From Dehalococcoidia bacterium (GTDB lineage: Bacteria > Chloroflexota > Dehalococcoidia > Lucifugimonadales > SHYF01): 13,018 nucleotides of DNA. Made by a program: the position numbers and the translations under genes. Numbering within the stretch: position 1 is the first letter of the stretch; the number at the start of each line of letters is the position of its first letter. Location: the NCBI GenBank assembly GCA_009692985.1, contig SHYF01000034.1, positions 1 to 13,018 on the forward strand. Direction: 5' to 3'. This document shows positions 516 to 1,127 of the stretch, piece after piece. The notes beneath the pieces were generated by a model. That model was not told the origin of the DNA. It searched no databases and saw only the letters and a list, made by a program, of their open reading frames with translations.

Positions 516-544
516 TGGACAAAATACCGTCCTTGAGGTACACT
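516..544 (+). promoter_or_regulatory. Candidate sigma-70 promoter of the selenoprotein gene
   Basis: TGGACA at 516-521 (5 of 6 matches to TTGACA) is separated by 17 bp from TACACT at 539-544 (4 of 6 matches to TATAAT). This would start transcription near 551 and leave a leader of about 40 nt before the ATG at 592. Inverted segments GGAC/GTCC (517-532) overlap it and could be regulatory. The match is moderate and rests on sequence alone. I see no other feature in 405-591 apart from the short odd palindrome CCACTCAGTGG near 479-489. Confidence 0.35.
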
Positions 545-575: not shown

Positions 576-587
576 TAAGGAGGTGAT
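576..587 (+). promoter_or_regulatory. Exceptionally strong Shine-Dalgarno sequence
   Basis: TAAGGAGGTGAT is an exact 12-nt complement of the usual 3' end of bacterial 16S rRNA (AUCACCUCCUUA). It ends 4 nt before the ATG at 592, so the GGAGG core (579-583) has a spacing of 8 nt. It fixes the start of the selenoprotein at 592 and argues against a start at the in-frame ATG 658, which has no such site and lies after the UGA. Confidence 0.9.
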
Positions 588-591
588 GCTT

Positions 592-879
592 ATGTCACAA
601 CATTCAGGTAAGCTTCAAATGGAGATACGGTACTGCCTCGGTTGAGGCTTCCTTCCCATGGCGGCGTGGATCGCCACCGAGTTCTGGTCCGAATTCAAGG
701 GTACGTTAGGAATTAGCCTGACCCCCGTGGACGGGGGCCGGTTAGAGGTTATGTTGGAAAATGAAATGCTCTTCGACCGCGTAGCGGAAGGGGGCGCGTA
801 CCCGGGGTTAGACAAGGTTCGGGCCATGAAACGGACGGTCAAGGAGAGGATGGGGCAGTTGGCCGTAGTTTCCAGATGA
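592..879 (+). CDS. Rdx/SelW-family selenoprotein with UGA-encoded selenocysteine
   Basis: This is a small thioredoxin-like-fold redox protein of the Rdx family (SelW/SelT/SelH group), 95 residues. It reads through an in-frame UGA at 643-645. The N-terminus contains EIRYCLG-U-GFLPMAAW, so the family CxxC/CxxU redox motif is C15-L-G-U18. Downstream of the UGA the family pattern continues without a break: AAWIATEFW helix, a strand rich in hydrophobics, GGRLEVMLENEMLFDR, then EGGAYPGLDKVRAMKRTVKER, as in bacterial Rdx proteins (GG-x-FE-x, then GGFP-x-x-K-x-LK-x-x-VR). The perfect Shine-Dalgarno sequence, the SECIS-like hairpin just after the UGA, and a strong terminator 30 bp past the stop at 877-879 define a single-gene unit. 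Sec-containing SelW-like proteins are known from bacteria and marine metagenomes, so the family is not new. The alternative is a nonsense mutation of a Cys homologue; the UGA sits exactly at the redox Cys position, which makes that unlikely. Confidence 0.88.
659..676 (+). promoter_or_regulatory. Bacterial SECIS hairpin within the selenoprotein coding region
   Basis: TGGCGG (659-664) pairs with TCGCCA (671-676): five Watson-Crick pairs plus a closing G-U pair, around the loop CGTGGA (665-670). The apical loop starts 19 nt after the UGA and has a G in its first two positions. Both features fit the known bacterial SECIS pattern: a stem of at least 4 bp, a small loop with an early G, and a loop roughly 16-37 nt from the UGA. 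It would recruit SelB with Sec-tRNA. It was recognised by eye and not folded computationally. Confidence 0.7.
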
Positions 880-908: not shown

Positions 909-946
909 AGCGGGGTCCCGATGTTATCGGGGCCTCGCTTTGTTTT
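909..946 (+). terminator. Rho-independent terminator of the selenoprotein gene
   Basis: AGCGGGGTCCCGAT (909-922) pairs with ATCGGGGCCTCGCT (926-939) over 14 bp, with two G-U pairs and a GTT loop. It is followed by a T-rich tail (TTTGTTTT, 939-946). It starts 29 bp after the selenoprotein stop and faces the converging hyi gene. Confidence 0.9.
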
Positions 947-1127
947 GTGGCCGAGGCTCCGTGGTTATCTCGCGACTGCCCGCTTAGCACGAAAAGGCAG
1001 GCAAACCCAGTAACGAATTCACCAAACTAATTGATTAGGACTACCGCAACAGCCATGACTTCCACCAAAGGGCCCTGCTCACCAATAAAAAGGAGCGCCC
1101 ACCCGGCCCGCCGGACTGCGTCCGTTG
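947..1127. other. Intergenic stretch without a recognisable feature
   Basis: This lies between the selenoprotein terminator and the 3' end of hyi. I looked for tRNA signatures (in particular selC), for a minus-strand terminator for hyi and for small ORFs, and found nothing convincing. On the minus strand a small GGAC-GCA-GTCC hairpin and a T-run (TTTTTATT, about 1084-1091) lie near each other, but not in a terminator arrangement I would defend. Confidence 0.4.

Follow-up and report, generated by a model that had tools for sequence, protein, structure and literature searches.

Evidence for a SelW-like selenoprotein gene with an in-frame UGA codon and a conserved stem-loop in a Dehalococcoidia bacterium

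Here, we describe a gene of the Rdx/SelW family on contig SHYF01000034.1 of the Dehalococcoidia assembly GCA_009692985.1. The stretch analysed, termed the window in the following, comprises 13,018 nt and is one contig (C34) of an assembly of 1.31 Mb in 128 contigs with a completeness of 71%. The forward-strand frame 592-879 is almost certainly a complete SelW-like selenoprotein gene in which the UGA codon at 643-645 is read as selenocysteine (Sec) with the aid of a hairpin at 660-678. This reading is based on the codon usage of related genes at this position, the Sec machinery of the genome, and the conservation of the hairpin.

The frame begins with ATG 592, ends with the stop codon TGA 877-879, and encodes 95 residues if the UGA is read through. 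In translation it is open except for the TGA at 643-645, which represents codon 18 and provides the second redox position in the motif Y14-C15-L-G-U18; the N-terminal part of the read-through protein is MSQHSGKLQMEIRYCLG-U-GFLP... Mechanical ORF listing reports only 658-879 (73 aa), in agreement with the initial annotation, which had described a gene broken at the UGA and reduced to the part from 658. Its claim that read-through yields a full-length Rdx protein with Y-C-L-G-U is borne out by the Pfam Rdx profile (PF10262, cut-off 22.6 bits), which the read-through protein matches with 45.5 bits (E 8.7e-12) and the part from 658 with 25.0 bits. The start signal and the terminator named in the same annotation were likewise found. 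A Shine-Dalgarno sequence, AAGGAGGTGA, can be read directly at 577-586 (+) and fits ATG 592; an in-frame GTG at 583 and an ATG at 586 are also present upstream and would overlap with it. Downstream of the gene, an intrinsic-terminator-like hairpin with 14 pairs and a loop of 3 (909-939, -25.4 kcal/mol, z -5.17) is followed by a T-rich tail, the whole element spanning 909-949 (+). A weak sigma-70-like promoter candidate (TGGACA, 17 nt, TACACT) with 9 of 12 consensus matches is located at 516-544 (+); the consensus scan of 400-1000 returned two sites, one per strand, against a shuffle mean of 0.3. Together, the promoter-like site, the Shine-Dalgarno sequence and the terminator-like hairpin suggest that the gene probably forms a unit by itself, on whose transcript the ribosome would start at 592. 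The neighbouring genes, a piece of an MFS transporter upstream and a sugar-isomerase-like gene downstream, are both located on the other strand and give no functional clue to the Rdx gene.

Related genes were collected by a protein search in 393 genomes of the same class, 143 of which gave a match at E<=0.001; the best 30 loci, the window included, were taken and the weaker matches in the class were left out. A second contig collection added three further loci from metagenome-assembled genomes titled Chloroflexi bacterium. The resulting 33 orthologue entries correspond to 32 distinct genes with the window counted, where entries L002 and L049, both the window itself, and L081, whose gene sequence is identical to L050, were each counted once. 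Codon 18 is TGA in 30 of these 32 best-matching orthologues and TGC in two. A more distant set of 30 Rdx genes consisted of 29 of the best 30 loci from a profile search (158 genomes with a match) together with L001, one locus (L032) having been dropped for want of a tblastn match at E<=1e-3; here the same codon is TGA in 4, TGC in 25 and TGT in one gene. Thus, as the initial annotation had expected of a Sec codon, Cys (TGC or TGT) is aligned with U18 in all 28 non-TGA homologues, and the random residue in relatives that it had named as an argument against Sec was looked for in the 62 distinct genes compared: no codon other than TGA, TGC or TGT occurs at this position. Among the weak matches of the class sample, some show odd stop patterns, with two TGA codons in G391, three in G352 and a TAA in G168. 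A protein search of plasmids gave nine records with 32-36% identity and no near relative. As regards the terminal stop, 28 of the 29 other TGA orthologues end with TAA or TAG; since the window gene ends with TGA, UGA must serve both as Sec codon and as stop in one mRNA.

The reading frame appears constrained on both sides of the TGA, as judged from the comparison with the closest relative (L079), which together with the translation supports the earlier statement that the frame is kept behind the UGA at 643-645. Mismatches by codon position number 2, 0 and 6 in the 14 codons before the TGA and 13, 15 and 33 in the 71 codons after it, with most substitutions at third positions. The corresponding values are pN 0.06 and pS 0.68 before the TGA, and pN 0.20 and pS 0.55 after it, compared with pN 0.30 and pS 0.22 for two wrong frames. 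In the protein alignment used for structure prediction, which comprises 28 of the 62 distinct genes, sequence is conserved on both sides of position 18. Each of the 28 rows has Cys in column 15 and either Cys or Sec in column 18; Tyr14, like Cys15, never varies, and at least 90% of the rows carry Ile12.

These data bear on two other explanations. According to the first, the locus is a pseudogene or an assembly or sequencing error, in which a Cys codon (TGC or TGT) was mutated or misread as TGA and no full protein is made. A single substitution indeed separates either codon from TGA, and the window gene, unlike most of its relatives, also ends in TGA. We nevertheless regard this as very improbable: TGA stands at the same codon in 29 other distinct orthologues from other genomes, the frame appears constrained before and behind it, and in-frame TGA codons are also found in a second Rdx gene and in selD of the same genome. 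A sequencing error in particular is very unlikely, given the TGA in 29 further genomes or records. The second explanation places the true start at ATG 658, so that a protein of 73 residues without the redox motif would be made and 592-657 would be a leader sequence. Although this start is the one given by the mechanical ORF listing and the truncated protein alone passes the Rdx cut-off, we consider it still less probable, given that the 5′ part is conserved as protein (the residues at 12, 14 and 15), that the low pN relative to pS stems from precisely these 14 codons, and that the Shine-Dalgarno sequence fits 592.

Sec insertion at the UGA, which the initial annotation had put forward as an inference, is supported as such by the 30 TGA and two TGC orthologues and by the Sec machinery of the genome. 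A search for selA, selB, selC and selD, as proposed earlier, detected all components in this one assembly, namely selA (570.9 bits, cut-off 267.9), selB (350.0 bits, cut-off 242.25), selD (373.2 bits, cut-off 125) and a tRNA-Sec (65.6 bits) with the anticodon TCA. Neither selB nor selC, the absence of which would have spoken against the reading, is therefore missing from this 71%-complete assembly. A second tRNA-Sec match over the cut-off (50.6 bits) was discarded, as ARAGORN calls it tRNA-Ser. The selD gene (L017:1483-2529) contains one in-frame TGA in the context HCAG-U-ASK, which we take to be the position of the catalytic Cys; therefore, this enzyme of the Sec pathway is probably a selenoprotein too. 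The second Rdx gene with a TGA in the same genome is located on contig C66 (L001:2-304, reverse strand) and reads EYCHN-U-GYAL.

Machinery in the relatives was surveyed in the 29 class-sample assemblies with a TGA orthologue in the compared set (28 and the own assembly), a set outside of which the assemblies of L079 and L080 lie. A selB-family match at E<=1e-60 was found in 22 of the 29. The remaining seven (G284, G196, G266, G260, G249, G234, G225) are each at most 87% complete and have best tRNA-Sec matches of 73.2-77.5 bits, called by score and not by anticodon; five of them contain selA over the cut-off, while G196 and G225 yielded no selA and no selB match at E<=1e-60.

Decoding of the UGA as some other residue, such as Trp under code 4, or unspecific read-through, is negligibly probable. 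Although the inserted residue cannot be read from DNA by itself, the non-TGA homologues have Cys in 28 of 28 cases and Trp in none, the window genes for RuvC and RuvA terminate with TGA, Trp is encoded by TGG in the seven other genes checked, and the genome possesses the Sec machinery. The lack of internal TGA codons in the checked window genes is no evidence here, because these genes were called as stop-free frames.

A stem-loop also forms behind the UGA. At 660-678 (+), GG 660-661 pairs with CC 677-678 and GGCG 663-666 with CGCC 672-675, with a C662/A676 mismatch between the two helices; the apical loop UGGAU lies at 667-671, and 21 nt separate it from the UGA. An RNA alignment of 51 bases from the TGA for the 30 TGA orthologues (27 distinct rows) gave one RNAalifold consensus structure with two pairs, a mismatch, four pairs and a five-base loop, and the loop UGGAU is present in 29 of the 30. 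Compared with column shuffles, 97.5% of the cells are paired (86.0 +/- 1.4%), 16 cells are changed on both sides in a compensatory manner (2.7 +/- 1.4), and the covariation score is 0.399 (0.169 +/- 0.022), values reached by none of 500 shuffles. Two of the five covariation measures are not extreme, namely three pairs with a double change, a value reached by 95 of 500 shuffles, and ten further pair types (46 of 500). Since the sequences are related, these shuffle counts are not probabilities; moreover, the slid control is biased towards the hairpin position, which was derived from the fold of the window itself. Because the sequences code for protein, a null of 500 synonymous recodings was applied as well: 6.00 of the 7 positions pair, compared with 4.64 +/- 0.15 and a highest value of 5.00 among the recodings.

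The position of the hairpin is similarly distinctive. A hairpin of four pairs whose loop lies exactly 21 nt past the UGA occurs in 29 of the 30 TGA orthologues, in 27 of them at -7.5 kcal/mol or below. It occurs in one of the two Cys orthologues and one of 26 other Cys Rdx genes, with none of either kind at -7.5 kcal/mol or below. Of the four distant TGA Rdx genes, a single one has it, namely the second Rdx gene of the own genome, there with an identical UGGAU loop 21 nt after the UGA. The number of fixed-position pairs lies below the synonymous null in 25 distinct other Cys Rdx genes (2.76 vs 3.09) and in the four distant TGA Rdx genes (2.75 vs 3.30), and the two Cys orthologues have 4.00 pairs against 4.15 +/- 0.60 (n=2).

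The model of the bacterial SECIS (bSECIS) as quoted in the literature comprises a loop of 3-9 nt situated 16-37 nt after the UGA, a stem of 4-16 bp, a G in the first two loop positions and a minimum free energy of -7.5 kcal/mol or less (PMC13188914). With 21 nt between UGA and loop UGGAU, a stem of 4 bp plus 2 bp, G as second loop base and -10.2 kcal/mol, the window hairpin agrees with this description. So do 27 of the 30 TGA orthologues and all four distant TGA Rdx genes, but also 20 of the 26 other Cys Rdx genes; thus, the generic scan is unspecific and was rejected as evidence, and it is the conserved position and the covariation, not the model, that carry weight. Local folding energy as sole evidence was set aside too, as the 25 distinct other Cys Rdx genes fold about 2 sd more stably than their own synonymous null (-10.37 vs -9.29 +/- 0.50); a small alignment of Cys genes was likewise put aside. 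Folded alone at three lengths, the window hairpin shows no extra stability over shuffles (z 0.75, -0.22 and 0.28), and single-sequence folding gave z 0.37 for the second Rdx gene and 0.68 for L079, the region past the UGA of selD reaching -1.75. The hairpin reported earlier behind the UGA is therefore present, yet modest by itself and distinct only through its conservation and covariation. An Rfam scan of the window gave nothing over threshold. On the comparative evidence we identify the stem-loop at 660-678 as a predicted bacterial SECIS element. A complex of SelB-GTP and Sec-tRNA-Sec bound to it would insert Sec at 643-645 instead of termination.

A small natural experiment is provided by the two Cys orthologues. 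In a tree of 62 Rdx proteins, calculated with the Sec/Cys column masked and midpoint-rooted from few columns (with a warning by the tool), the 32 orthologues form one starred group (100/99). Within this Sec clade, the two Cys orthologues join the window gene and L079 in a smaller group that is also starred (98/87). Weak points of the tree are the very long branch of L001 (2.88) and the pairing of the window gene with L079 (96/32). The hairpin is weakened in L050, where the four inner pairs form with one G-U and the best fold is different, and broken in L080, where the four inner pairs are not formed. The simplest reading would be that Sec gave way to Cys in one sub-lineage and that the hairpin decayed with it, a direction that we infer, as the tree is midpoint-rooted with few columns. 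The Cys-orthologue genome G347 keeps selB, selA and tRNA-Sec, and it holds another Rdx match with a TGA.

The predicted product is a small thioredoxin-like protein. An AlphaFold2 model based on the 28-row alignment (mean pLDDT 92.1, pTM 0.82) has the SelW-type thioredoxin-like fold, and the 22 PDB chains matched by Foldseek at E<=0.001 all come from the six bacterial structures 3dex, 2fa8, 2obk, 2oka, 2ojl and 2p0g, several of which are named SelW-related or Se-binding, and from mouse SelW (2npb). The motif C15-L-G-U18 is placed in the model between the strand 8-15 and the helix 21-35, apparently as in thioredoxin-like redox proteins. As Cys15 lies at the end of strand 1 and Sec18 before helix 1, an oxidoreductase activity of this redox pair is likely; the protein is probably a thiol/selenol oxidoreductase acting via a Cys-Sec bond. 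Apart from Pfam Rdx, the protein stays below the cut-offs of NCBIfam TIGR02174 CXXU_selWTH (30.0 vs 34.2 bits), under which it is therefore not filed, and of the equivalog NF041051 SelTWH_Campy (38.7 vs 88 bits).

Regarding function, the relatives offer a testable lead. Directly upstream and on the same strand, a gene of one family is found in 14 of the 33 locus entries (32 distinct loci), which include the window and the duplicate L081 and have flanks of differing length, some too short to tell. In these 14 loci, L052, L060 and L073 among them, it ends 69-163 bases before the Sec codon. Three of the upstream genes were scanned and match FeS_assembly_P (PF01883) with 59.5-86.3 bits; in L052, the upstream gene (1170-1472, stop 1470-1472) is separated by 10 nt from the Rdx start at 1483. 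This neighbour is absent at the window gene, and the single PF01883 match of its genome is on another contig. A conserved long frame, presumably squalene/hopene-cyclase-like as judged by eye, lies downstream of the Sec-Rdx gene on the other strand in 11 loci. To our knowledge, the function of bacterial SelW-like proteins is not known. It is conceivable, though doubtful at present, that the orthologues are an Rdx subfamily of their own, with Sec in most members, and act together with iron-sulphur assembly; if so, Fe-S maturation would draw on the Sec protein as a selenol reductant or carrier, and a bacterial SelW-like protein would be tied to a pathway.

SelW-like selenoproteins with CxxU have been known in bacteria for about 20 years, and the window gene adds one more. 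A survey from 2006 lists 10 bacterial SelW-like selenoproteins and counts three selenoproteins in Chloroflexi (PMC1794560), and SelW-like proteins (CxxU, 427) head the prokaryotic family table of the GOS survey (PMC2398784). The accessible text of a study on Chloroflexi single cells treats selenocysteine in the context of dehydrogenases and mentions neither SelW nor Rdx (PMC4959059). No prior report of the gene or of the Fe-S neighbourhood was found in titles and abstract openings of the literature on SelW, Rdx, Chloroflexi and DUF59 selenoproteins; papers on SelW with Rdx in bacteria were, at this level, mainly mammalian reviews. The present study contributes a well-supported selenoprotein gene that is shortened by default ORF calling; in its class, 254 of the 393 sampled genomes have a selB match over the cut-off.

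Compared with known systems, the window gene shares with bacterial SelW-like selenoproteins the C-x-x-U motif, the size, the thioredoxin-like fold, the Rdx profile, and the UGA followed by a hairpin. It differs from them as a member of a divergent subfamily (EIxYCxxU-GYLPxAAWxATE) below the TIGR02174 cut-off, and the five best-scoring Cys Rdx genes outside this subfamily are 37-42% identical to it over 56-89 columns. The bacterial Rdx structures 2fa8, 2obk, 3dex, 2oka, 2p0g and 2ojl, which we take to have Cys in place of Sec, resemble the protein in sequence (E 4.1e-9 to 3.5e-7) as well as in structure (Foldseek E 1.8e-7 to 3.7e-6). Mouse SelW (2npb) carries a C-x-x-U motif and is alike in fold (Foldseek E 3.2e-5, TM 0.74/0.79), although its identity to the window protein is only 22%. 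Sec insertion in mouse SelW depends on a SECIS in the 3′UTR, whereas the hairpin of the window gene is located inside the coding region.
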